37,617 bases of DNA, taken from assembly GCA_018063505.1 (NCBI GenBank), contig JAGPBF010000013.1:1-37617 (forward strand), in the 5' to 3' direction. A model generated the notes under the pieces. That model was given only the letters and a program-made list of their open reading frames with translations. It had not been told where the DNA came from and did not search any database. The position numbers and the translations under genes are program-made. Source of the DNA: Rhodoferax sp. Its GTDB lineage: Bacteria; Pseudomonadota; Gammaproteobacteria; Burkholderiales; Burkholderiaceae_C. Below, one piece after another: positions 3,323 to 15,307 of the stretch (the first letter of the stretch is position 1; the number at the start of each line of letters is the position of its first letter).

Positions 3323-4413
3323 GCCGGGTACACCAGCGCACGCGCGGGGTCGGCGGCGAGCACAAGCTGCTCGCCAGGCGACAGCAACCGGTCGCAGGCG
3401 AAATGCACACTCTGGCCGTCGGAGGTGCGGCCCAGCGCCTGGTAACCACGTCCCAGGTATTCGGTCAGTTCGACCGTGACGCCCAGGCCTGGCTGGCCGC
3501 TGGCTTGCACCGTGAGATCGTAGGGACGTACGGCGATCACGACCTTGTCGCCCAGGCTGTCCTGGCGCGGCCGACCTGTGAGTTCGCCGCAGTGCGGGTC
3601 GGATGGGGATGCCGTGTCCGCGCGAACGCCTATGGTGACCGCAGCGCCGTTGCGTGCGAGTATGCGTCCCGGCAGGCGATTGCGAAATCCCATGAAGTCG
3701 GCCACGCCGAGATCAATTGGCGCATCGAATAATTCGCCGGGAGTGCCGACCTGCTGCACACGACCGTCCCGCATGACGACGATGCGGTCGGCCAGCGACA
3801 AGGCTTCTTCCTGGTCGTGCGTGACGTACACCGTGGTGGCTCCCGACTGCAGGTGGATGCGCCGGATCTCCTGGCGCATTTCCTGGCGCAGCTTGGCATC
3901 CAGGTTCGACAAGGGCTCGTCCATCAGAACCAGCGTGGGTTCGGTGACGATGGCGCGCGCGATCGCGACGCGTTGCTGTTGTCCGCCCGAGAGCTGACCG
4001 GGCAGCTTGTCCTGCTGGTCGCTCAAGCGCACCATGGCCATTGCCTTGTCGATACGCGGGCCTGCCTGCGCGGCGGGAACGCCCTGCATGCGCAGGCCGA
4101 AGCCGACGTTGTTGCGCACCGTCATGTGCGGAAACAACGCGTAGTTCTGGAACACCATCGAGAAGCCGCGCTCTTCGGGCTTGAGATCGTCGATGCATCG
4201 GTCGTCCAGGTGCATGCTGCCGCCGGTAATGGCCAGCAGGCCGGCGATGCAGTTGAGTGCCGTTGACTTGCCGCAGCCCGACGGCCCCAGCAAGGCCACG
4301 AACTCGCCGCGTTGAATGTCCAGCGACACGCCATCGAGTGCCTTGAAGCCCCCGAAGGCGCGCTGCATGCCGTCGATGCGCAGCTTGCGGAAGCCGTTGT
4401 CCCTCGAACTCAT
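3319..4413 (-). CDS. ABC transporter ATP-binding protein, PotA/FbpC-like
   Basis: Energises the importer made with the two upstream-coupled permeases. The 364-residue protein contains Walker A GPSGCGKST, Q-loop VFQNYALFPHMTV, signature LSGGQQQRVAIARAI, Walker B LVLMDEPLSNLDAK and the H-loop YVTHDQEEALSLADR. A C-terminal region of about 120 residues corresponds to the TOBE regulatory domain. ATG 4413 overlaps the binding-protein stop by 4 bp (ATGA). The same frame stays open upstream to 5154, but only as an antiphase reading of the binding-protein gene. The family is certain, the substrate is not. Confidence 0.9.
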   Translation of the reverse strand: MSSRDNGFRKLRIDGMQRAFGGFKALDGVSLDIQRGEFVALLGPSGCGKSTALNCIAGLLAITGGSMHLDDRCIDDLKPEERGFSMVFQNYALFPHMTVRNNVGFGLRMQGVPAAQAGPRIDKAMAMVRLSDQQDKLPGQLSGGQQQRVAIARAIVTEPTLVLMDEPLSNLDAKLRQEMRQEIRRIHLQSGATTVYVTHDQEEALSLADRIVVMRDGRVQQVGTPGELFDAPIDLGVADFMGFRNRLPGRILARNGAAVTIGVRADTASPSDPHCGELTGRPRQDSLGDKVVIAVRPYDLTVQASGQPGLGVTVELTEYLGRGYQALGRTSDGQSVHFACDRLLSPGEQLVLAADPARALVYPA

Positions 4414-5621
4414 TTGGCGGCGGGTTTCGTGCCCACCAACTGGTCCCACATCTTGAAGGCGCCAACCATCTTGGCGGGCTCCAGCGGCAGCTCGATCGGA
4501 TTGTTGGCAATCAGGCTGGCGTATTCGGGGCGCCCGAATTCGCGGATGATGTCCTGGCTGGCCTTGGGTGCAAGGCTCAGCGGCACGTTCTTGACCGCCG
4601 GCCCCGGATACAGGTAACCGGCGTCGTACGAGATGGCCTGCATCTCGGGCTTGAGGATGTGCGCCATGACATTGAGCGTGACGGCCAGACGATCGTTGGG
4701 AACGCCTTTCGGGATACACATGAAGAATGCGTCCGATACCCAGTGGAATCCCTTGAGCGTACCGATCGCAGCGGACTTGGGCACGATGCCCAGCGCGCGT
4801 GGATTGATGTCCCAGCCGGTGGTGGTGATGATGATGTCGCGCGAGCCTTCTCCGAATTCCTTCATCGTGGCGCCGGTGCCGGTGGGGTAGTACTCGATGT
4901 ACTTGCCCAGCTCCTGCAGGTAGGCCCAGGTCTTTTCCCATCCCTTGTCGGGATCTTTCGGATCCTTGTCCTTGAGCAGGTAAGGCAGGCCCATCATGAA
5001 GGTGCGGCCCGGCCCGGAGTTGGCCGGGCGCGCATACATGAAACGCTTGGGGTTGGCCTTGGCCCAGGCCAGCAGTTCGTCGGCCGTGGTGGGCACGTTC
5101 TTGACGCGCTCGGGCGCGTATTCGAGCAGTGGGCCCGACGGGTAGTAGTTGCACACGACACCGAAGCCGCGACCCTGCACCTTGTGCAGATTGAGCGCAG
5201 CCGGCTCGTAGTTGCTCTCCAGGTTGGGGAATCGCTCATCGTGTTCGGGCAGGATCTTCATCCACAGGTCTTGCTCGAGGCCGGAGGCAAGTCCGTCGCT
5301 GCCGGTCAGGACCAGATCAATGTCCATCCGACCTGCCGCCTGCTGGGCCTTGAGCTTGCTTGCAAGTTCGGGTGCCGGTGCCTTGATGAAGCCGATGCGG
5401 GACGCCAGATTCGGGTACTTGTTCTTGTAGTCCTCGAACGCGGGCTGGATCAGCGCCAGGGCGCCGCCGACGTCCATCACGTTGATGGCGACGGGGCTCG
5501 ACGGCAGTGCTGGGCTGGCGGCGTGCGCCGACAGCGACAGGCCTGAGATGCCGGCCAATGCGGTGCCGGACAGGCTGCGCAGGAACGCGCGACGATCAGC
5601 TTCGTGGGAGGGAATCTGCAT
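4410..5621 (-). CDS. Tat-exported periplasmic solute-binding protein of the amino-sugar-linked ABC importer
   Basis: Captures the substrate in the periplasm. The 403-residue precursor has a twin-arginine signal: DRRAFLR at residues 9-15, then a hydrophobic stretch and an Ala-X-Ala-like end near SAHAAS (residues 31-36). Export after folding is therefore likely. The mature part resembles the extracellular solute-binding proteins of the PotD/AfuA class, in keeping with the PotB/PotC-like permeases. It is the first gene of the minus-strand operon, with 234 bp of regulatory DNA separating it from the divergent ROK regulator. A Tat-exported PotD-like protein at the head of a nag operon is unusual, so the ligand could be GlcNAc, a glucosamine derivative or a small oligosaccharide. 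Confidence 0.8.
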   Translation of the reverse strand: MQIPSHEADRRAFLRSLSGTALAGISGLSLSAHAASPALPSSPVAINVMDVGGALALIQPAFEDYKNKYPNLASRIGFIKAPAPELASKLKAQQAAGRMDIDLVLTGSDGLASGLEQDLWMKILPEHDERFPNLESNYEPAALNLHKVQGRGFGVVCNYYPSGPLLEYAPERVKNVPTTADELLAWAKANPKRFMYARPANSGPGRTFMMGLPYLLKDKDPKDPDKGWEKTWAYLQELGKYIEYYPTGTGATMKEFGEGSRDIIITTTGWDINPRALGIVPKSAAIGTLKGFHWVSDAFFMCIPKGVPNDRLAVTLNVMAHILKPEMQAISYDAGYLYPGPAVKNVPLSLAPKASQDIIREFGRPEYASLIANNPIELPLEPAKMVGAFKMWDQLVGTKPAAK

Positions 5622-5855
5622 GAACGATCTCCTGAGTATGCGTTGATGGTGGGTTGGAAACAGGGAACTCGCGTACGATGGAAGTTATTTTCAAACGGCA
5701 CTGTTTAAAAGTCAATGAAAGATTGCATTGCGAAGCCAGACATCTTCCTCGCGGGAGGACACCGCGACTGCGCGTGCACACACTGGCCGCATGCTCACGC
5801 CGCTGTCTTTTCGGCGTGAACCGGCGATTCCGTGAAGGCTGCCTAGAATCGACCC
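5622..5855. promoter_or_regulatory. Divergent regulatory region between the nag/ABC operon and the ROK regulator
   Basis: This 234-bp gap must hold the promoters of both divergent units. The clearest structure is an imperfect palindrome with arms TTTTCAAAC (5688-5696) and GTTTAAAAG (5703-5711), seven of nine bases complementary around a 6-bp spacer. Outside the arms an A/T pair (5687/5712) and a T/A pair (5685/5714) extend it. The region is AT-rich against a GC-rich background. E. coli NagC and Mlc, also ROK proteins, bind AT-rich palindromes of this general kind, so this is the best candidate operator. I could not define a -10/-35 pair with confidence. Confidence 0.45.
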
Positions 5856-7136
5856 ATGCAGCGACCTGTCCGAAATCCCAGCGCGGCGGGGCCAAGTGCC
5901 GACCCGTCCGCTCCTTCGCTGGCAACTCCGACTCCCGCGTGGGAGAGCTGGTTGCAGGACGCCGGTCCGGACGGGGCCGAGAGGGCCTTCGTCGCCGTTT
6001 TGACAGGTGTTGCACGTGCGCGCACTGGTTTGTCCGAGAAGCTCAAGGTCCGCTCGACGACGGTGTCGGCTTGGGTGGCGGCAATGGTTCAGGCCGGTTT
6101 GCTGACCGAGCAGATGCGCAAGCCGGCCGGACGTGGCAGGCCACGGGGTTATCTGCAGGCAAACCCCGATCGCCTGGCCGTTTCCGTCGTGATGGTTCAC
6201 AGCCAGTCGCTACACGTATCGGTGGTCAACCTGAGCGGTCGCGAACTCTGGCACGAAAGCACACCCGTTGCAGCCGACGCGAGCAATGCTGTGATGCGCA
6301 ATGCCTTGCGTGCCTTGCAGAACCGTGCCATTGAGCAATTGAATCCGCAAACGTCCCTGGTTGGCGTCAGTTTTTCCTTGTCCGGGCTGGTCAATATCGC
6401 GACGTCGCAATGGGTGTTCTCGTCACGCTGGCCAAACGTCAGCAAGCTGGGCCTGCGCGACTGCGCCGTGCCCCGGGGCGTGCAGATCCATGTCGTGCGC
6501 AACGTTGATGCACAGTTGCTGGCGCGCCACATGCGCAAGGATCATGTGGGTGCGGACCGAAGGACATTGTTGCTGCACTGGGGTTACGGCATCGGTATGA
6601 CATTCGGGCCTGCGTCGTTGGCCTCGACGGCGACAGGCCAGCGTGCATACGGGTACGGCGAGGTCGGTCACTGGCAACTCGCAGGTCAGCGGATGTTGTG
6701 CCGTTGCGGACATGTCGGTTGCCTGGAGACAGTGGCCTCGCTGTGGGCCATCGGTCCCGCGCTGTTGGGCGACCGATTCGACGAGACCATGGACGAAACC
6801 CAGGTTGCGCGCTTGTTGCAAGACAAGTTGCTCACGCGTAGCCGTGTGTTCAAGCGGGCACTGCACGAGATGACCGAGGTGCTGATCAATCTGTGTCGGC
6901 TGTATTTTCCGTCAGAGGTGGTTGTGTCGGGGCCATTCATCGAAAACTCCGACGTGTGGACGGCGCTGACCGGAGCTGCGGGACAGCGCGATCTGCTGGT
7001 GGGTTTGCCTATGCCTCCATTGGTACGTCAGCATATCGGGCATCAACTCGAAAAGGAAGGTGCTGCCATGCCCCTGCTGCTGCGCGGCCTCAAGGAGCTG
7101 GTGGCGCGGTCACTGCAACAAGGATCGGCAACATGA
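5856..7136 (+). CDS. ROK-family transcriptional regulator (NagC/Mlc-like)
   Basis: Probable repressor of the divergent amino-sugar operon, with a phosphorylated sugar as inducer. The 426-residue protein has a winged-helix region at about residues 45-100 (LSEKLKVRSTTVSAWVAAMVQ followed by the wing RGRPRG) and a ROK domain after residue 105. The ROK zinc site is complete: His272 in GEVGHWQL and the CRCGHVGC cluster (Cys282, Cys284, Cys289). The N-terminal DxGGT-like ATP loop of ROK kinases is not visible, so this is a regulator and not a GlcNAc kinase. The stop overlaps the next gene by 4 bp (ATGA). The first 40 residues are Pro/Ala-rich and could be partly untranslated. Confidence 0.85.
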   Translation: MQRPVRNPSAAGPSADPSAPSLATPTPAWESWLQDAGPDGAERAFVAVLTGVARARTGLSEKLKVRSTTVSAWVAAMVQAGLLTEQMRKPAGRGRPRGYLQANPDRLAVSVVMVHSQSLHVSVVNLSGRELWHESTPVAADASNAVMRNALRALQNRAIEQLNPQTSLVGVSFSLSGLVNIATSQWVFSSRWPNVSKLGLRDCAVPRGVQIHVVRNVDAQLLARHMRKDHVGADRRTLLLHWGYGIGMTFGPASLASTATGQRAYGYGEVGHWQLAGQRMLCRCGHVGCLETVASLWAIGPALLGDRFDETMDETQVARLLQDKLLTRSRVFKRALHEMTEVLINLCRLYFPSEVVVSGPFIENSDVWTALTGAAGQRDLLVGLPMPPLVRQHIGHQLEKEGAAMPLLLRGLKELVARSLQQGSAT

Positions 7137-8002
7137 CCAAAGCAGCTGTCTCACCGATGTCCTTTCACGGGCTTGACGCCGTAGTCCTGCGATCGGTCGA
7201 TGGCGCAGAGGCAATTGTTACGCTGCAAGGCGGTCATGTCGTGTCATGGACGCCTGCGCAGTCCGGTCGGGAGCGGCTCTACCTGTCACCTGATTCGGCG
7301 TTTTCCGACGGACAGGCGATTCGCGGCGGCGTGCCGGTGGCGTTTCCGCAATTCGCCAATCGGGGGCCATTGGTCAACCACGGCTTTGCACGGAACGCAA
7401 TGTGGCGGCTGCAGCATGGCGGCCGAGGGCCGAGCGGCGAGGCCCAGGCTGTGTTGCGTTTGAGGGCGCACGCGCAAAGCCGGGCTCTTTGGCCGCATGA
7501 TTTCGTGCTGGACTTGGCGGTGCATGTGCTTGGCGATAGCCTGTCGCTGGTATTGACGTGCACCAACGACGGGTTGCTGCCGATGTCGTTCACGTGCGCC
7601 CTGCACACCTATCTTCGGGTTGCCGACGTGGCGCAGGTGGCGTTGGATGGACTGGGCGGCCAGTCATATTGGGACAAGACCGACGGTCTGAACAAGGTAG
7701 GGGACGCAGCGCTGCTTGTGTTTGACGGTGAAGTGGACCGCATTTATGGCGGCGTGCAGCGTGACCTGTTGCTGTTCGAGACAGCCGGAGCAGCGACCCC
7801 TGATCTGCATATCGCCCAGCACGGCTTCACCGACGTGGTGGTCTGGAATCCGGGCGCGGCACGTTGCGCCGCGCTGCCCGACATGCCTGCCGACGGCTAT
7901 CGCCACATGCTGTGCGTGGAAGCGGCCTGCATCAACTGCCCGGTCACGCTGGCGGGGGGACAGGCGTGGACGGGTACGCAGACCTTGGTTGCGGCCCGCT
8001 GA
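7133..8002 (+). CDS. D-hexose-6-phosphate mutarotase (YeaD-like aldose 1-epimerase family)
   Basis: Interconverts the alpha and beta anomers of a hexose-6-phosphate in the cytoplasm. The 289-residue protein shows the characteristic blocks IRGGVPVAFPQF (63-74), NHGFAR (82-87, His83 and Arg86), ALHTYLRV (156-163, catalytic-type His158), VVWNPG (236-241) and YRHMLCVEAA (256-265, Glu263). ATG 7133 overlaps the ROK gene stop by 4 bp, so the two are co-translated. Its position beside a nag regulator suggests it serves phosphorylated amino sugars or the fructose-6-phosphate/glucose-6-phosphate pool. The longer open frame from 6893 lies inside the ROK gene and is not used. Confidence 0.85.
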   Translation: MTKAAVSPMSFHGLDAVVLRSVDGAEAIVTLQGGHVVSWTPAQSGRERLYLSPDSAFSDGQAIRGGVPVAFPQFANRGPLVNHGFARNAMWRLQHGGRGPSGEAQAVLRLRAHAQSRALWPHDFVLDLAVHVLGDSLSLVLTCTNDGLLPMSFTCALHTYLRVADVAQVALDGLGGQSYWDKTDGLNKVGDAALLVFDGEVDRIYGGVQRDLLLFETAGAATPDLHIAQHGFTDVVVWNPGAARCAALPDMPADGYRHMLCVEAACINCPVTLAGGQAWTGTQTLVAAR

Positions 8003-8065
8003 GCAGACGCCCCGTGGCCTGCGGCATGATCCCTTGCTGACGTCGAACTTGCGAATCCGCGCCTG

Positions 8066-8671
8066 ATGGACTACCTGATATTTTTCGCTGCCATGGTCGT
8101 GGGCCTGAGTGTCGTGCGCCTTACCTACGAACGCAGGCGTATTGCCTTGCTGGCCGGGTACCTGGGCCGGTTCCAGATCGAGAAACTGATGGCCACACTG
8201 TCGGACGGATATATGCGGGCGCTGGGTGAGAGCGACCCGCAGCGCCAGCAGCAGGTCTGGGATTTTCTGCACCCGTCCGAACAGGCGCTCTGCAAGCAGT
8301 TCGATCAGTTCGCTGGCGCCATTGCCAAGGCGAACGAGGCCGACACACGCGTCAGCACCTTGCCAGTGACGCTGCCGTGGGCCGACCGCCTGCTTCCCAA
8401 GGCCAGTTTCGACCTGCGCAAGGCGCTGGCCATCCACGCCCGGGGAATCCGCGCGGCGGTGGCGGAGCATGCACATGAGTCGTCCAGGGACAGGGCTTAT
8501 CGGCTCAGTGGCGAGATGTTTCTGATGCAGCACACCTGCCACTGGTATTGCAAGTCCAAGTCCGTCGCCTCGGCGCGCATGTGGGTACGCCACAAGACGC
8601 GGTACGCGCAACTGCTCCAGGCGGTGGGCACGCAGACGGCCAGGGACTATCGCGCCTTGGTGGAGGTGTGA
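8066..8671 (+). CDS. Hypothetical protein with one N-terminal membrane helix
   Basis: Not recognised. The 201-residue product starts with a hydrophobic helix (residues 3-18, YLIFFAAMVVGLSVVR), followed by a basic patch (YERRRIALLAGYLGR) that suggests N-out topology with the bulk of the protein in the cytoplasm. The remainder is charged and probably mostly helical, with several Trp, His and Cys residues in the C-terminal third (MQHTCHWYCKSKS). It lies 63 bp after the mutarotase gene on the same strand and may be transcribed with it. No clear Shine-Dalgarno precedes ATG 8066. Codon use matches the neighbours and the frame has no rival of similar quality, so I consider it a real gene. Confidence 0.65.
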   Translation: MDYLIFFAAMVVGLSVVRLTYERRRIALLAGYLGRFQIEKLMATLSDGYMRALGESDPQRQQQVWDFLHPSEQALCKQFDQFAGAIAKANEADTRVSTLPVTLPWADRLLPKASFDLRKALAIHARGIRAAVAEHAHESSRDRAYRLSGEMFLMQHTCHWYCKSKSVASARMWVRHKTRYAQLLQAVGTQTARDYRALVEV

Positions 8672-8705
8672 TGCCCGGCTGCTGTTGCGGCACGCGCCAG
8701 CAAGG

Positions 8706-9143
8706 TCAGAACAGGCCTGGCACCAGGCGCTTGGTGCGGGTGCGGTAGGCGGTGTAGTCCGGATGGTGTTCGGCCATCGAGCGTTCTTCCAGTCGCGCCT
8801 TGACCAACAGCACCAGCAGCAATGCCGTCCATGCCAGCCAGGCAGGTGCCGGCGGCGCCGTCAGCGCCAACGCGGCGGCACCAAGCAACACCGCGCTGTA
8901 CATCGGATGGCGGATGTGGCGGTACGGGCCACTGGTGATCAGCCTGCCGCCGGCGCGCGGTATCGGGCGGATGTTGAAATTGCCAGGCCGGTTGTGCCAG
9001 AACGTCCATGCCACCAGTGCGAGGGCGGCCAGGGCCAGCACGATCGCCGCTGCGGATACCGATCCCTGTGCCATGCGTGCTGCCGCCAGCCCTGCCAGCA
9101 ACAACAGCAGCCCGAACTGCAAAGCCACGAGTACGGCACCCAT
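8706..9143 (-). CDS. Isoprenylcysteine carboxyl methyltransferase-like membrane protein
   Basis: Member of the small integral-membrane methyltransferase family (ICMT/PEMT fold). Bacterial substrates are mostly unknown. The 145-residue protein has about four hydrophobic segments. The signature GPYRHIRHPMYSAVLLG in the centre and the C-terminal EERSMAEHHPDYTAYRTRTK form the S-adenosylmethionine and lipid binding region. I place the start at ATG 9143, which has an AGGTGG ribosome site 8 nt upstream (9152-9157). The GTG at 9155 gives four more residues but overlaps that site. The gene is convergent with the hypothetical gene at 8066-8671 and divergent from the LexA-boxed operon. Confidence 0.75.
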   Translation of the reverse strand: MGAVLVALQFGLLLLLAGLAAARMAQGSVSAAAIVLALAALALVAWTFWHNRPGNFNIRPIPRAGGRLITSGPYRHIRHPMYSAVLLGAAALALTAPPAPAWLAWTALLLVLLVKARLEERSMAEHHPDYTAYRTRTKRLVPGLF

Positions 9144-9254
9144 TGCTGATTCCACCTACTTGTTGACCAGAGGCCATGTTCGCAGCTTTTTCCACCTGCC
9201 GGCAAAGGCCTGTGTGCACGCCAGCACCACCGCCCGACGGATGCGGGTAATATG

Positions 9255-9270
9255 CTGTATGAATCTACAG
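9255..9270 (+). promoter_or_regulatory. LexA (SOS) box
   Basis: The sequence CTGTATGAATCTACAG fits CTGT-N8-ACAG exactly, the binding site of E. coli-type LexA used in beta- and gammaproteobacteria. A possible -10 element TAATAT lies just upstream at 9248-9253, so the box would cover the transcription start, a common SOS layout. I see no good -35. The box sits 72 bp before the preferred start of the nuclease-like gene at 9327. The ATG at 9252 would put the box inside the coding region and is unlikely to be used. The divergent methyltransferase-like gene starts 112 bp away and could also be affected. Confidence 0.8.
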
Positions 9271-9326
9271 TTTCCAGCACCCGCGACGCTGCAACCGAGT
9301 TTCCATCCCTAGGTGCCCCTGCTGCC

Positions 9327-10271
9327 ATGCGCGAGAACGCCACGTCAACCATCAGCGCCACCATGCCGTCGGATGCCCAGGCACCGGTGCTGACACGCGC
9401 GCACGCCCGGCGCCTGCGCGAGATCTACCGCTCGGCCGGCTGGCCGAGCCAGGATGGACTGGAAATCGAGCTGCTGGCCGCCGGCCTGCTGGAGCGGCTG
9501 CGCCCGTCCGGTGGTATCGAAAGCTTGCGTGTCACGGACGCCGGCATCACCTACCTGGCCCAGACACTGCAACGCAACCGGCAGGCTTTGTCGGTGCATG
9601 ACGCATTGGTGGCGCAGGTCGCGCGCAGCCTGTTGGTGGCCGGTCGCGTGGTGTGGACCGGCCTGGCGGTACGGGCGCGCCTGCCCGAACCCGGTGATGC
9701 TGCGCCTGCGCCGCTGCTGGATGCCGCTGGCGTCGGGTCCGGGCCGGTGGTTGCGCACGGCGCGCCGGACCCGACGGCGCAGACGCCAGAGGCCTTTGAC
9801 CTGACACCGGGTCACAGCGGACGCAACAAGGCGCGCTGGAAAGTCTGCAAGCCCGATGTGTTTTCGATTCGCAACACCACGGTGGCGGCCTATCTGCAGC
9901 CGGTGGTGCATGAGATCAAGGTCAGCCGGGCCGATCTGCTGGGCGATCTCCGACTGCGCGACAAACGCGACAGCTACCTCGACATCGGCGGCCAGTGCTG
10001 GTATGTGCTCGGCTGCGATGCCCGTGGACGCCCGATTGCGCAGGCCGACGAAGTTCCGCCGGCCTGCGGCGTCATCTTCGCCATGCCCGACGGACAACTG
10101 GACGTGGCGCGCCATGCGCCAAGCCGTGCCATCGCCGACCTGCCGTTTGCGTTGTGGATGGCGCTGTCCAGGGCCACACCTTTGAGCATGGCCGGTGTGA
10201 CCGACGAGGACGGCGGCCCCGGTCAGGCCATGCTGCAGCCGCAAACTGCGCCCGCTGCCGATCTGCCGTGA
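9327..10271 (+). CDS. Winged-helix plus PD-(D/E)XK-like nuclease protein (MmcB-like), SOS-associated
   Basis: Probable DNA-repair factor. The 314-residue product has two parts. An N-terminal region resembles a winged helix (TRAHARRLREIY, then GLEIELLAAGLLERL and a wing ending in LRVTDAGITYL). A C-terminal region fits a restriction-type nuclease core: KPDVFSI supplies the acidic residue and VHEIKVSRADLLGDLR supplies the E-x-K, followed by KRDSYLDIGGQCWYVLG. The order resembles MmcB/DUF1052 proteins, but that is judged by eye. I prefer ATG 9327. ATG 9363 is an alternative, and the frame back to 9252 contains the LexA box. The stop overlaps the helicase start by 4 bp (GTGA), so the two are coupled. 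Confidence 0.65.
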   Translation: MRENATSTISATMPSDAQAPVLTRAHARRLREIYRSAGWPSQDGLEIELLAAGLLERLRPSGGIESLRVTDAGITYLAQTLQRNRQALSVHDALVAQVARSLLVAGRVVWTGLAVRARLPEPGDAAPAPLLDAAGVGSGPVVAHGAPDPTAQTPEAFDLTPGHSGRNKARWKVCKPDVFSIRNTTVAAYLQPVVHEIKVSRADLLGDLRLRDKRDSYLDIGGQCWYVLGCDARGRPIAQADEVPPACGVIFAMPDGQLDVARHAPSRAIADLPFALWMALSRATPLSMAGVTDEDGGPGQAMLQPQTAPAADLP

Positions 10272-12766
10272 GCGCTCCGGGCTCTGTGGGCGCAGACGTG
10301 TTGCCCGATCACGGCGGCGATGCGCAGTTGCAGCATGCGGCGCCAGCAACGCAAGCGCCTGTCGACGGCGATACGTCCGCTGCGGCAAACCCTGGATCTG
10401 AGGCGGCTTTTTACACGGTATCGGTGCGCAACCTATGTGCATTTTCCGCGAAATGCGGCGATCTCGATCTGCGTTTCACACCATCACCCACAGCGCAGCA
10501 AGGGCGCCTGGGGCACCAGCGCGTGGCGCAGCGGCGTGGACCCGGGTACGAGACCGAAGTCAGCCTGGAGGGTGTGGTACACGGTCTGCGCATACGCGGC
10601 CGGGCTGACGGCTTCGACCCCGACAGCCACACGCTGGACGAGGTCAAGACCTTTCGCGGTGCGGTCGAGGCCATCGCCCCGCAGCACCAGCTGCTGCACT
10701 GGGCGCAGGCCAAGGTCTATGGCGCGCTGATCTGTGCCAGCCGCGGCCTCCCCGCACTGACCCTGCGCCTGGTGTATTTCGACGTCGTGGCCCAGTCCGA
10801 ACATCCCTTGACGCAGCGCTGCCGTGCCGACGAATTGCAGCAGTTCCTCGATGACCTGTGCCAGCGTTTCGTGCATTGGGCGCGCCAGGAGCAGGCCCAT
10901 CGCAGCGCCCGTGATGCTGCGCTGGCGCAATTGGTTTTTCCGCAGTTGCCCTTCCGGCCGGGTCAGCGCGACCTGGCGGGCGCCGTCTACCGGGCCTGTC
11001 TGCAGTCGCGTCCGTTGCTGGCGCAGGCGCCCACCGGCATTGGCAAGACCATCGGTACCTTGTATCCGGCACTGCGCGCGATGCCGGTGCGCGGTACCGA
11101 CAAGCTGTTTTTCCTGACCGCCAAGACGCCGGGACGGCAGGTGGCACTCGACGCCTTGCGGCCCTTGCGCGCGGCTTGCGGCCCGGCGTCGCAGGGGTCG
11201 GCATTGCGGGTGCTGGAACTGGTGGCCAAGGACAAGTCGTGCGAGCACCCGGACAAATCCTGCCACCCGGATTCCTGTCCGCTGGCGCGGGGCTTTTACG
11301 ACCGCCTCGCGGTCGCGCGCCAGAATGCGGCGCGCCGCGGCTGGCTCGACCAGCATGCCTTGCGCACACTGGCGCTGGCGCAGGGGATCTGCCCGTATTA
11401 CCTCGGCCATGAAATGCTGCGCTGGAGCGATGTGGTGGTGGCCGACTACAACTACTATTTCGACCGCAGTGCAATGTTGCATGCGATGACGGTCGAAAAC
11501 CAGTGGCGCGTCACCGTGCTGGTCGACGAGGCCCACAACCTGGTGCCGCGCGCGCGCAGCATGTACAGCGCCGAACTGAGCCACGCCGAGACGCTGGCCG
11601 CACGTGCCCATGTGAGCGGCGCGCTGCGGGCGCGGGTGGACGGTCTGCTCGACCAATGGCAGCTGCTGCACGATGGCCAGCTGCGCGAGGCGCCACAGCA
11701 GACCTGGGCCGCGCTCGATGCCGTGCCGCCAGCCTGGTTTCGCGCCTTGCAGACGCTGTGCAGCGCACTGGGCGAACATCTCAATGACCGTGCGGGCGAG
11801 GCCGACACGCCGGTGCTGGCGTTCTACTTTCGCGCGCTGGCCTTTGCCTCGCTGGCCGACATGTTCGCGGCGCATTCGCTGTGCGAGTTCGACCGCAGTG
11901 AAGATCCGGTGGCGTTGGCTTCGGATGCGGCCGCCGCGACCGCGTCGCAGAGCCGCCTCGATGCCGGCGGGTTCGATTTCCCGCCCGGGGCTGCCGGTCG
12001 TCTGAACCTGCGCAACATCGTGCCAGGTCCCTTTCTGTCGCCGCGTCTGCAATCGGCCGACACGGTGGTGCTTTTCTCGGCCACGCTGAACCCGCAGCAC
12101 TACTACCGCGCCTTGCTGGGATTGCCCGACGACACCGCCTGGATCGACGTGCCCAGCCCATTTGCCGCCAGCCAGCTACGGGTGCGTGTCGTGCCGGTAT
12201 CGACGCGCCAGGCGGATCGGGTGGCCTCGCTCGACACGCTGGTGGCGGCGATGGCGCGGCAGTTCACCCGGCAACCCGGCAATTACCTGGCCTATTTCAG
12301 CAGCTTCGACTACATGGAGCAGGCCTGCGAACGCATCGGCCAGTCCCATGCGCAGATTCCGGTCTGGACCCAGGCGCGCCAGATGGACGAGTCGGCGCGG
12401 CGGGCGTTTCTGCAGCGCTTCGACGCGGCGGGCCAGGGCATCGCATTTGCCGTGCTCGGAGGTGTTTTTGGCGAAGGTGTCGACCTTCCCGGGAATCGGC
12501 TGATTGGTGCATTCGTGGCCACGCTGGGCCTGCCGCAGTTTGACGCAGTCAACGAGGTGATCCGCGAACGCATGCAGACCATGTTCGGCCAGGGCTACGA
12601 CTACACCTATGTCTACCCGGGTTTGCAGAAAGTGGTGCAGGCGGCCGGTCGGGTGATTCGCACCGAAAGCGATACCGGCTGCGTGTTGCTGCTCGACGAG
12701 CGTTACCTGCAGCCGCGTTACCGTGCCTTGTTGCCTGCGTGGTGGGATCTGGCGCGGCGCGCATGA
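10268..12766 (+). CDS. RecB/Cas4-like nuclease fused to an Fe-S DinG/XPD-family DNA helicase
   Basis: Predicted ATP-dependent helicase with its own nuclease domain. From GTG 10268 it is 832 residues. The N-terminal third carries RecB/Cas4-type motifs: GH at 82-83, GRAD (Asp114), DEVKT (Glu125, Lys127) and QAKVY (Gln147, Tyr151). The helicase has Walker A APTGIGKT (254-261), four cysteines placed as in XPD and DinG iron-sulfur domains (325, 332, 337, 375), DEAH in VLVDEAHNL (residues 420-423), and C-terminal motifs VLFSATLNP and QAAGRVIRTESD. GTG is favoured because it gives the GTGA overlap with the upstream gene. The frame back to 9995 is a shadow of that gene. It ends 17 bp from the convergent dgoA. 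Related single-protein fusions are known, but the pairing with the upstream protein is less familiar. Confidence 0.88.
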   Translation: MSAPGSVGADVLPDHGGDAQLQHAAPATQAPVDGDTSAAANPGSEAAFYTVSVRNLCAFSAKCGDLDLRFTPSPTAQQGRLGHQRVAQRRGPGYETEVSLEGVVHGLRIRGRADGFDPDSHTLDEVKTFRGAVEAIAPQHQLLHWAQAKVYGALICASRGLPALTLRLVYFDVVAQSEHPLTQRCRADELQQFLDDLCQRFVHWARQEQAHRSARDAALAQLVFPQLPFRPGQRDLAGAVYRACLQSRPLLAQAPTGIGKTIGTLYPALRAMPVRGTDKLFFLTAKTPGRQVALDALRPLRAACGPASQGSALRVLELVAKDKSCEHPDKSCHPDSCPLARGFYDRLAVARQNAARRGWLDQHALRTLALAQGICPYYLGHEMLRWSDVVVADYNYYFDRSAMLHAMTVENQWRVTVLVDEAHNLVPRARSMYSAELSHAETLAARAHVSGALRARVDGLLDQWQLLHDGQLREAPQQTWAALDAVPPAWFRALQTLCSALGEHLNDRAGEADTPVLAFYFRALAFASLADMFAAHSLCEFDRSEDPVALASDAAAATASQSRLDAGGFDFPPGAAGRLNLRNIVPGPFLSPRLQSADTVVLFSATLNPQHYYRALLGLPDDTAWIDVPSPFAASQLRVRVVPVSTRQADRVASLDTLVAAMARQFTRQPGNYLAYFSSFDYMEQACERIGQSHAQIPVWTQARQMDESARRAFLQRFDAAGQGIAFAVLGGVFGEGVDLPGNRLIGAFVATLGLPQFDAVNEVIRERMQTMFGQGYDYTYVYPGLQKVVQAAGRVIRTESDTGCVLLLDERYLQPRYRALLPAWWDLARRA

Positions 12767-12783
12767 GCCGGTCCGCGCAAAGC

Positions 12784-13422
12784 TCAGGCGAGCAGCGCGC
12801 CGCGCATGGCCGCCACGAACGCCGCCGCGTCCTGGCGCACCCGCTCTGCGCTCTTGCCCGGCTTGTACAGCGCCGAACCCAGGCCAAAGCCTTGGGCGCC
12901 AGCGGCCAGCCAGGGGCCCATGTTCTGCGCTGTGATGCCACCTACCGGCACCATCAGCGTGCCGGCCGGCAACACCGCCAGCATCGCCTTGAGCACGACC
13001 GGGGTTGCCGCTTCGGCCGGGAACAGCTTGAGTCCGTGTGCGCCCGCATGCAGGGCGGCAAAGGCCTCGGTCGGTGTGGCAATTCCGGGCAGGCAGACCA
13101 TGCCCAGGTTGACGGCTTCGGTCACCACACTGGCATCGAAGTTGGGCGAGACGATCAACTGCCCGCCAGCGGCATGCACCTCGCGAACTTGCGCCGCCGT
13201 CAGCACGGTGCCGGCGCCGACCAGTGCCTGTGGATGGGCATTTGCCAGCAGCGCAATACTGTCCAGTGGCTGGGGCGAGTTGAGGGGGACTTCGATCAGG
13301 CCGAAACCCGATCCGGTCAGTGCCTGGCCAATCGACGGCGCCTCGCCGGGTGTCAGGCCGCGCAGAATCGCGACCAGTGGCATGGTCTGGAAATGGGTGG
13401 CAAATTTCTGCAGGGGTTTCAT
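12784..13422 (-). CDS. dgoA: 2-dehydro-3-deoxy-6-phosphogalactonate aldolase
   Basis: Cleaves 2-keto-3-deoxy-6-phosphogalactonate into pyruvate and glyceraldehyde-3-phosphate. The 212-residue class I aldolase of the KDPG/KHG family has VAILRGLTP (Arg21), IEVPLNSP (Glu44, the general acid/base) and GLKLFPAE (Lys132, the Schiff-base lysine). The VPLNSP variant is typical of the KDPGal branch, and the adjacent KDGal kinase supports that reading. It may also accept KDPG, which would matter because a KDG kinase lies in the same operon. ATG 13422 overlaps the dgoK stop by 4 bp. It is the last gene of the minus-strand operon 17144-12784. Confidence 0.88.
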   Translation of the reverse strand: MKPLQKFATHFQTMPLVAILRGLTPGEAPSIGQALTGSGFGLIEVPLNSPQPLDSIALLANAHPQALVGAGTVLTAAQVREVHAAGGQLIVSPNFDASVVTEAVNLGMVCLPGIATPTEAFAALHAGAHGLKLFPAEAATPVVLKAMLAVLPAGTLMVPVGGITAQNMGPWLAAGAQGFGLGSALYKPGKSAERVRQDAAAFVAAMRGALLA

Positions 13423-14381
13423 CGGGATGTCCGTTCGTCTGGCAGGTGAGAGCCCAGCGCATGCAGGCCGGCCCAGGTGGCTTCGGCGCCCATGCGATGG
13501 GCTGCGATGTCGAGGGACGCCAATGCCAGTGCATACCGCCGGGTCAGGTTCTCCGAGCCGATCAGCACCACGTGACGGGTATCGCTCAAGGGGTTGTGGT
13601 GCAGTTCGTCGCCGATCACCAGGCCCGACAGGTAACTGGCCAGCGCGCCCGCGTCCATGCGGACCATCAGCGCCAGCGTACGCGTGCCGAAGGCGTTGTG
13701 CAACAGACCCCCGCCCTGGCGGGCGCGCGCCACGCCGAGCGTGAACGCCGGCGCGTCAAAGGCGGCCTTGGTGTCGATCGTGCGGGCCAGCAGCGAGTGC
13801 TGGCTGAGCAGTGCATAGAATTCCCCGGTCATGAACGAGCGAAATTCGGTGACGCGCCCGTTGCGCACCCAGGCCCATTTGCTGTGGGTGCCCGGCAGGA
13901 TGAACAGACCCTCGTCGATGCCGCCCAGGTGCATGGCGCCGAAGATCTGCACTTCTTCGCCGCGCATGACGTCGGGAATGGTGGGCAGCTGCGGCAGGCC
14001 ACAGGCCAGCTCGCAGTTCAGGCCTGGCACGATGGCGGTGGGCAGGCGCAAGGCCGGGTCGGTGATCCAGCGCAATTGCGCGGCCACGTCGGCAAAACCG
14101 GCCGGGCAGGCGCAGTAGGGCGCCTCGACCCAGCCCTGCTTGCTGCCAGCCATACCCGAGATCAGGCATGCGCGGGCACTGCCCAGGGCCCAGTCGCCGA
14201 AACAGTCGTCGAATGCGGCGGCGAATCCGCCGGCAGGCACGTTCAGGATGCCTTTGCCAAAGGAACGCTCTTCCAGCACGCGGCCACTGGCGTCCAGGCG
14301 TGCGCCGCGCAGGGCGGTCGTGCCCCAGTCCAGCGCCAGCAAGGCGGTGGTGGCGTCGCTGTCTGCCGTGCGGGTAGTCAC
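13419..14381 (-). CDS. dgoK: 2-dehydro-3-deoxygalactonokinase
   Basis: Phosphorylates 2-keto-3-deoxygalactonate at O6 with ATP, feeding the overlapping aldolase gene. The 320-residue ASKHA-fold kinase shows LLALDWGTTALRGARLD near the N-terminus (phosphate-1 loop), ISGMAGSKQGW, VMRGEEVQIFGA and ILPGTHSKWAWV, which are the conserved blocks of the DgoK family. The start is GTG 14381, overlapping the kdgK stop by 4 bp (GTGA). Length and motif order are normal. Having this and a KDG kinase side by side suggests that both C4 epimers of the 2-keto-3-deoxy sugar acid are handled. Confidence 0.9.
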   Translation of the reverse strand: MTTRTADSDATTALLALDWGTTALRGARLDASGRVLEERSFGKGILNVPAGGFAAAFDDCFGDWALGSARACLISGMAGSKQGWVEAPYCACPAGFADVAAQLRWITDPALRLPTAIVPGLNCELACGLPQLPTIPDVMRGEEVQIFGAMHLGGIDEGLFILPGTHSKWAWVRNGRVTEFRSFMTGEFYALLSQHSLLARTIDTKAAFDAPAFTLGVARARQGGGLLHNAFGTRTLALMVRMDAGALASYLSGLVIGDELHHNPLSDTRHVVLIGSENLTRRYALALASLDIAAHRMGAEATWAGLHALGSHLPDERTSR

Positions 14382-15307
14382 AGGACGGCGAAGACGGAAC
14401 TGCTGCGCGGCATCGGATTGACCGCGCCGAAACCTTGCACCGACAAGGCCGCTGCAGCATTGGCGTATGCGGCGGCGTGAAACACGTCGTCACCCTTGGC
14501 CATGCGCGCCAGCAGATTGCCGCAGAAGCAGTCGCCGGCGCCGGTGGCGTCACGGACCGTGACATGGCGCGCCGCGATGGTTTCGCGTTTGCGACCATCA
14601 CTGATACGGGCACCTTCGGCGCCGAGCTTGAGCACGACCGTGGCAGCACCGTTGTCGTGGCCCCAGTCGATGACCTGGTCGGGTTCGGTCAGGCCGGTCA
14701 GCGTCGTCATGTCTTCCAGGCTGGGCAGGAACAGGTCGCACATGCTCACGGCCTGGATGGTGCAGGCCCTGGCGCGGGCCAGTGGCCACAGTTTGAGGCG
14801 CAGATTGGAATCGAATGACACCAGCGTACCGGCTTCCCGGGCGGTCTCCATGGCTTCGAACGCGGTGTCGCAGGCGCCGGCTGAAATCGCCAGCGAGATG
14901 GCCGACAGGTGCAGAAACCGCGATTCGCGGATCAGGCCGGTCGGCGTGCCGGCCAGCCATTGGGGCGTCATGCGGCTGGCGGCCGAATCGGCCCTCAGAT
15001 AGCTGAATTCATGGCCCTGGCTGCCGTGGGTCACGAAGTAGATGCCGGTGTGGCTGGCGCTGGCCGTGCTCACGCCGCTGGTGTTGACACCTTCCTGAGC
15101 CCACAACTGCAGCAACAGGCGACCGAAATTGTCGGCGCCGATGCGCGTCAGGTAGGCGGTGCGTGCGCCGGCCCGCGCGGCAGCGATGCTCGCGTTGCTG
15201 GTGTCGCCACCAAAACCCTGCAGATACTGCGCCTGGCCCGGTGTGGTCTGGTTGAACTCGACCATGGCCTCCCCCAGCGCCACCACGTCATATATTCGCG
15301 TTTGCAT
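14378..15307 (-). CDS. kdgK: 2-dehydro-3-deoxygluconokinase (PfkB family)
   Basis: Phosphorylates 2-keto-3-deoxygluconate to KDPG. The 309-residue PfkB-family kinase has LGEAMVEFNQ (11-20), GFGGDTSNASIAAARAG (31-47, the substrate glycine motif), Arg106 in FSYLRADSAA, FDSNLRLKLW (165-174) and the signature DATGAGD (253-259, with Asp259 as catalytic base). ATG 15307 has a GAGGGG ribosome site seven bases upstream, which decides against the longer frame to 15499. It is separated from the dehydratase by 100 bp containing two hairpins. The PfkB family is certain. KDG is inferred from the family-typical N-terminus and the context. Confidence 0.87.
   Translation of the reverse strand: MQTRIYDVVALGEAMVEFNQTTPGQAQYLQGFGGDTSNASIAAARAGARTAYLTRIGADNFGRLLLQLWAQEGVNTSGVSTASASHTGIYFVTHGSQGHEFSYLRADSAASRMTPQWLAGTPTGLIRESRFLHLSAISLAISAGACDTAFEAMETAREAGTLVSFDSNLRLKLWPLARARACTIQAVSMCDLFLPSLEDMTTLTGLTEPDQVIDWGHDNGAATVVLKLGAEGARISDGRKRETIAARHVTVRDATGAGDCFCGNLLARMAKGDDVFHAAAYANAAAALSVQGFGAVNPMPRSSSVFAVL

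Follow-up and report, generated by a model that had tools for sequence, protein, structure and literature searches.

DinG-like helicases have varied substrates and roles, and a 2025 review by Cheng (PMC11981726) defines among them, in the sections drawn on here, the EndoDinG subgroup. Endonuclease activity of a Bdellovibrio member is given there as unpublished data, and neither an operon nor any partner, MmcB-like or FAN1, is mentioned in those sections. In FAN1-EndoDinG pairs of the PaFAN1/PA1865 type, PA1865 is described, in the portions of PMC12796719 used here, as guiding cross-link unhooking and as induced by ultraviolet C light (UV-C) and ciprofloxacin in Pseudomonas aeruginosa, and PA1866 is listed beside it among the genes differentially expressed after UV-C. 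A third described relative, MmcB of Caulobacter, is presented in the parts of PMC9578287 available to us as SOS-regulated, protective against mitomycin C and a hypothesised partner of translesion polymerases. Here we analyzed a two-gene locus in a 37,617-nucleotide stretch of Rhodoferax sp. DNA (order Burkholderiales, family Burkholderiaceae_C; assembly GCA_018063505.1, contig JAGPBF010000013.1, positions 1 to 37,617), referred to as the window. Its second gene, P2, encodes an EndoDinG, its first, P1, encodes a winged-helix protein with an MmcB-type nuclease core, and our results suggest that P1 has taken the place of FAN1 beside EndoDinG in this bacterial family. The features of the locus are as follows.

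9255-9270, no strand assigned: LexA-type SOS box CTGTATGAATCTACAG, an exact CTGT-N8-ACAG; similar boxes precede P1 in tandem P1-EndoDinG relatives.
9327-10271, + strand: P1, open frame of 314 amino acids, a winged helix plus MmcB-type PD-(D/E)XK protein.
9384-9587, + strand: P1 residues 20-87, MarR-like winged helix.
9588-10196, + strand: P1 residues 88-290, MmcB-type nuclease core with a variable insert at about residues 123-168.
9855-9857, 9912-9914 and 9918-9920, + strand: predicted catalytic residues D177, E196 and K198 of P1, respectively.
10268-10271, + strand: GTGA start/stop overlap joining P1 and P2.
10268-12766, + strand: P2, open frame of 832 amino acids with a GTG start, EndoDinG.
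10409-10912, + strand: P2 residues about 48-215, RecB/Cas4-like nuclease domain with D114, E125, K127, Q147 and Y151.
10928-12763, + strand: P2 residues 221-832, XPD/DinG-like helicase with Walker A (257-261), DEAH (420-423) and iron-sulfur (Fe-S) cysteines 325, 332, 337 and 375.

These open frames and the box bear out two elements of an earlier sequence-only reading of the window, which had proposed a GTGA-overlapping gene pair preceded by a perfect CTGT-N8-ACAG. There is a second in-frame ATG for P1 at 9252, use of which would place the box within P1, so the start of this gene is uncertain.

Among 150 sampled genomes of the window's family, P1 was present in 74 (single-sequence search, 1e-5) and EndoDinG in 60 (E <= 1e-60). 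Both genes were carried by 54 genomes, P1 alone by 20 and EndoDinG alone by 6 (Fisher p = 3.9e-17, odds ratio 31.5; these values, like the exclusion probabilities below, ignore shared ancestry in a phylogenetically clumped sample). Of the 54 co-carriers, 21 have the two genes in tandem and 2 have them adjacent but oppositely oriented; in 7 others a single contig holds both at a distance of more than 1.5 kb, and the remaining 24 have them on separate contigs (draft contigs may hide some of the linkage). As for conservation of the gene pair, a point raised by the sequence-only reading, co-occurrence is strong in the family sample and adjacency extends to only 23 of the 54 genomes. Beyond the family, P1 was found in 3 of 150 order-sample genomes, the window's own included, and in 8 of 299 phylum-sample genomes at E <= 1e-4, three of them weakly. 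Thresholds differed between the P1 searches, at 1e-5 for the single sequence and at 1e-6, 1e-4 or 1e-3 for the profile.

An order sample of 200 genomes contributed 15 further EndoDinG genomes, and the count was completed by searching 11 genomes specifically for FAN1 and 19 for P1. Of the resulting 75 EndoDinG genomes of Burkholderiales, 57 had P1 only, 15 had FAN1 only, 3 had neither and none had both. If the two genes were distributed independently, 11.4 genomes would be expected to carry both, and the hypergeometric probability of finding none is 3.6e-13, a value overstated by the relatedness of the genomes; for the family sample alone, the probability of zero overlap is 1.1e-6. FAN1 was absent at E <= 1e-15 from all 74 P1 genomes of the family, including the window's own, and the FAN1 query gave exactly 5 matches in the 150 family genomes, all of them among the 6 family genomes that carry EndoDinG alone, and each adjoining EndoDinG. 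Across the 15 FAN1 genomes, FAN1 adjoined EndoDinG in 14 and lay elsewhere in one (G344). In G537, one of the 57 P1 genomes, the sole P1 match was a distant one (4.1e-32) and lay on a separate contig. Outside the order, 4 genomes of a class sample of 274 carried EndoDinG, and in all 4 it was directly preceded by FAN1 (tblastn); the three of these FAN1 proteins that were scanned with Pfam matched FAN1_HTH, FANC_SAP and VRR_NUC. The FAN1-EndoDinG pair thus shares with P1-EndoDinG its helicase partner and gene order, and sometimes a LexA-type box before the nuclease gene, and differs in that FAN1 has FAN1_HTH, SAP and VRR-NUC domains where P1 combines a MarR-like winged helix with an MmcB-type nuclease. 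The parallel that had been drawn from the sequence with a FAN1-like nuclease/helicase pairing therefore stands, since in other lineages it is FAN1 that immediately precedes this helicase, and none of the 75 EndoDinG genomes was found to hold both FAN1 and P1. In the open-licence papers searched, we found no report of a P1-like gene, of its pairing with EndoDinG or of its mutual exclusion with FAN1.

In the three genomes in which EndoDinG was found with neither P1 nor FAN1 (G114, G341 and G323), there is possibly a third partner.

P2 matched the Pfam families DEAD_2 and Helicase_C_2, and the solved helicase 9kqh_A aligned to it in two stretches, residues 51-441 and 594-826. Since this alignment begins at residue 51, the solved relative includes the N-terminal nuclease and spans both parts of the protein. 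When 61 EndoDinGs were aligned, D114, E125, K127 and Q147 were kept in 60, Y151 in all 61 and H83, the histidine of the GH motif, in 54, while the four Fe-S cysteines were kept in all 61. P2 has the features by which EndoDinG is defined (PMC11981726), namely, an N-terminal PD-(D/E)XK nuclease with ExK and XPD/DinG helicase domains with four Fe-S cysteines. By its sequence, P2 is a member of this subgroup, with predicted endonuclease and 5'-3' helicase activities, and its description as a RecB/Cas4 motif set fused to a four-cysteine XPD-like helicase was correct.

P1 had no match in Pfam (E <= 1), NCBIfam or PADLOC models. The MmcB model PF06319 found nothing in the window's own genome at E <= 10 and was absent from the 8 families recorded for the 29 sequences in P1 alignment A1, and we rejected P1 as an MmcB by the Pfam definition. 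Profile comparison and a confident structure model both support homology of P1 to the MmcB fold and catalytic core, with a MarR-like winged helix followed by a restriction-endonuclease-like, MmcB-type domain; the structure-match list for the model was filled mostly by winged-helix matches. Comparison of 9327-10271 with PD-(D/E)XK families thus revealed a nuclease fold of MmcB type, in agreement with the proposal of a winged helix fused to a restriction-type nuclease core. P1 shares with MmcB (PF06319; SPO1766, 3dnx) the nuclease core and the PD...ExK site, and differs from it in its extra winged helix and variable insert. Residues P176, D177, E196 and K198 were invariant in the P1 alignments (29/29 and 48/48 rows), including P1 proteins encoded far from EndoDinG. 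For these alignments, 28 of 29 relatives were used in A1 (L028, matched in two frames, was excluded), 14 of 15 in A2 (L125 excluded) and 47 of 80 genome_contigs loci in A3, where L078, L088, L097 and L114 were excluded for a stop inside the stated range and others, by choice, as near-copies. No VRR-NUC, SAP or FAN1_HTH domain was detected in P1 by Pfam. The core is predicted to be a catalytically competent MmcB-type nuclease. The fused P1 family is undescribed by Pfam, NCBIfam and PADLOC; EndoDinG and the MmcB-type core are not themselves new. Just upstream of 4 of the 15 MmcB loci fetched, there was a GTTC-N7-GTTC or GAAC-N7-GAAC box, which we take to be the alphaproteobacterial LexA box.

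The box before P1 is the sole exact CTGT-N8-ACAG in the 37.6-kb window, where 0.35 were expected, and at least one was present in 30 of 100 shuffled windows. The bare pattern was not enriched in the genome (27 places versus 33 for a reversed control), and there was no excess of boxes in the window when one mismatch was allowed (13 versus 11.15 expected). Because the window's box alone could be due to chance, its meaning rests on relatives. A box scoring at least 18/24 was found before P1 at 20 of the 32 distinct loci with P1 and EndoDinG in tandem, compared to 5 of 564 control windows drawn from these loci, using a score built on a LexA-box consensus and uncalibrated for the genome's own LexA site. 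The best box was taken from a span of 200 bases upstream to 40 bases downstream of the match start. The 32 loci come from the family sample and the nearest genome_contigs relatives, exclude the window's own locus and numbered 34, with 20 boxes, before removal of two duplicate places. Duplicates left out of the box counts were L136, L137, L140, L147, L164 and L170, and L059 was left out for too little upstream sequence; L061 (the same as L136), tandem by gene calling, was counted as lone and boxless, as its EndoDinG was only partly matched, and four distinct opposite-strand loci, two with a box, stand outside both the tandem and the lone counts. When operon heads were allowed for, 22 of 65 sampled P1 loci qualified compared to 5 of 414 other genes, with up to two windows scored for P1 and one for controls. 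SOS control is thus well supported, from conserved boxes, for the tandem subset, where LexA would bind and damage would induce the genes, and it is absent or undetected for most lone P1 genes.

On contig C360 of genome G000, two CTGT-N8-ACAG boxes lie at 2685-2729 with starts 29 bases apart; no lexA-like open reading frame or SOS gene was evident by eye near them.

Neighbors of P1 were called in 65 of the 74 family genomes (G000, G030, G074, G082, G083, G090, G109, G115 and G139 were not fetched), and in three of the 65 loci (L143, L159 and L161) the gene caller did not call P1 itself. Direct links to damage tolerance genes were found to dnaE2 in three loci, umuC in one and an SRAP gene in one. 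At locus L147, which coincides with L050, a box is followed by umuD, umuC, P1 and EndoDinG; the ends of umuC, P1 and EndoDinG overlap, and an SRAP gene is divergent. In L158 (genome G033, 4396-8102), a box separates SRAP, P1 and EndoDinG from the divergent genes umuD and umuC; EndoDinG was called there as a short frame of 394 amino acids and may be truncated or interrupted. Locus L140 (genome G022, 5936-15128; the same place as L111) has imuA-imuB-dnaE2-P1, a divergent EndoDinG and two boxes between imuA and EndoDinG, and is the whole pathway proposed below at one locus. The imuA-imuB-dnaE2-P1 order recurs in L162 and L168, with a box before imuA. Family models confirmed UmuC (L147 and L064), UmuD (L147), SRAP (L147 and L158), ImuA (L140) and DnaE2 (L111 and L168); ImuB, without a model match, was assigned by position, and the remaining translesion genes were assigned by similarity or by eye. 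Among the 80 nearest genome_contigs relatives, umuC lies at most 100 bases before P1 in 10 and dnaE2 at most 350 bases before it in 6.

Some lone P1 loci, such as L179 and L182-L185, had neither EndoDinG nor a box, and their neighbors were varied and apparently unrelated. FemAB-like and wax-ester-synthase neighbors of lone P1 genes look incidental and were set aside, the FemAB label having been given by eye without a family match. Downstream of the pair in the window, and convergent with it, are consecutive genes for a KDPG/KHG aldolase, a 2-keto-3-deoxygalactonokinase and a PfkB kinase (12784-15307, - strand), a sugar-acid catabolic cluster.

We propose that the locus is probably a LexA-controlled operon for replication-blocking lesions, most likely interstrand cross-links, that is, a damage-inducible incision module that feeds translesion synthesis and in which P1 stands in FAN1's place. 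DNA damage would lift LexA repression, and P1 and EndoDinG would be produced together. EndoDinG would then load on single-stranded DNA, travel 5'-3' and open or trim DNA at the stalled structure, where P1 would bind through its winged helix and cut with its MmcB-type nuclease, carrying out the incision or unhooking step done by FAN1 in the FAN1-EndoDinG pairs of other lineages. The polarity, the order of these steps and a physical interaction of the two proteins are presumed in this scheme. The gap opposite the unhooked adduct would be filled by a translesion polymerase, either UmuDC (DNA polymerase V, Pol V) or ImuA-ImuB-DnaE2; P1 shares operons with umuC or dnaE2 in some relatives.

Several observations weigh against this proposal. 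P1 is nearly confined to one family, EndoDinG was not detected at the chosen threshold in 20 of the 74 P1 genomes (among them that of L158, with its shortened copy), the two genes are not adjacent in 31 of the 54 co-carriers, and shared ancestry tempers the co-occurrence and exclusion p-values. Apart from EndoDinG, dnaE2, umuC and SRAP, no recognized repair gene stands beside P1 in most of the 65 loci, as judged by eye from first residues without a family scan. P1 also lacks SAP and the other accessory domains of FAN1. A box directly upstream was found in just 3 of 102 distinct lone P1 loci and in 4 of 35 EndoDinG loci fetched away from P1 (five of these 35 being FAN1-linked), and boxes before FAN1-EndoDinG pairs are patchy, at 1 of 9 (L220) in one set and 5 of 9 in another, without a control of their own. 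In the portions of PMC12796719 used here, PA1865 and PA1866 are placed outside the known LexA, Prt and Alp regulons. The SOS control claimed by the sequence-only reading accordingly holds for a subset, the tandem loci, and does not extend to lone P1 genes.

A less specific reading would make the pair a general SOS module for processing ends or flaps, at double-strand ends, R-loops or G-quadruplexes, with the FAN1 swap reflecting shared 5'-flap processing only. The diversity of DinG-like helicases in the sections of PMC11981726 drawn on above is consistent with this, and the lesion type is one that we infer; however, FAN1, MmcB and the translesion operons all indicate tolerance of cross-links or bulky adducts, and we consider the general module rather unlikely. 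Alternatively, P1 might be mainly a DNA-binding regulator or recruiter of EndoDinG, with a vestigial nuclease core, so that the EndoDinG nuclease would do all the cutting. The MarR-like winged helix and the operonic or divergent placement of P1 and EndoDinG in some genomes would fit such a role, but D177, E196 and K198 remain invariant even in P1 proteins encoded far from EndoDinG, which makes it improbable.

Co-occurrence and exclusion could also be by-products of phylogeny, with P1 marking one clade and FAN1 others, as would be consistent with the near confinement of P1 to one family and with the position of most FAN1 genomes counted (9 of 15) outside it. However, 6 genomes within the P1-rich family carry FAN1 and EndoDinG without P1, and in 2 genomes from other families P1 adjoins EndoDinG and FAN1 is absent. 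In addition, a quick-method tree of 61 EndoDinG rows separates the FAN1-linked members of the family into two positions. On this tree, 5 changes are required for the label of P1 side by side with EndoDinG (22 rows, of which one is a divergent and one a convergent locus), and well-supported branches force at least 4 of these changes. This tree omits L216 and L158 (short frames) and L140 (the same place as L228), and the L258 branch is very long. With these results, a purely phylogenetic origin of the pattern appears still more improbable than a regulatory P1.

The anti-invader half of the damage-processing or anti-invader role first suggested for the pair is very unlikely and was rejected, since the match of P2 residues 221-825 to the PADLOC type IV CRISPR DinG model (7.1e-114) covers the helicase part only, P1 had no match among 72,556 plasmid records and 50,697 phage records or, by a peptide-pattern scan, in the viral contigs, none of the 9 window neighbors scanned matched a defence or mobile-element family and the window has no direct repeats of at least 22 bases within 120 bases of each other (csf genes were not searched for).

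Returning to the incision module proposed above, EndoDinG is paired with either of two unlike nucleases and, in the genomes tested, never with both, which points to a shared biochemical step. The umuDC and imuA-imuB-dnaE2 links suggest a concrete route by which incision could be passed on to translesion synthesis, and they offer a function for a protein family that Pfam, NCBIfam and PADLOC leave undescribed. The pairing pattern also makes testable both cross-link unhooking in bacteria without FAN1 and the identity of the helicase that works with FAN1. Tentatively, and as a possibility rather than an expectation, P1 may represent a new MmcB-related family of cross-link-unhooking nucleases with its own DNA-reading domain, which displaces FAN1 in part of Burkholderiales, acts together with EndoDinG and is succeeded by Pol V or ImuABC. 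If this is true, bacteria would have an unhooking machine of two parts, in which EndoDinG is the constant motor and the nuclease is exchangeable.

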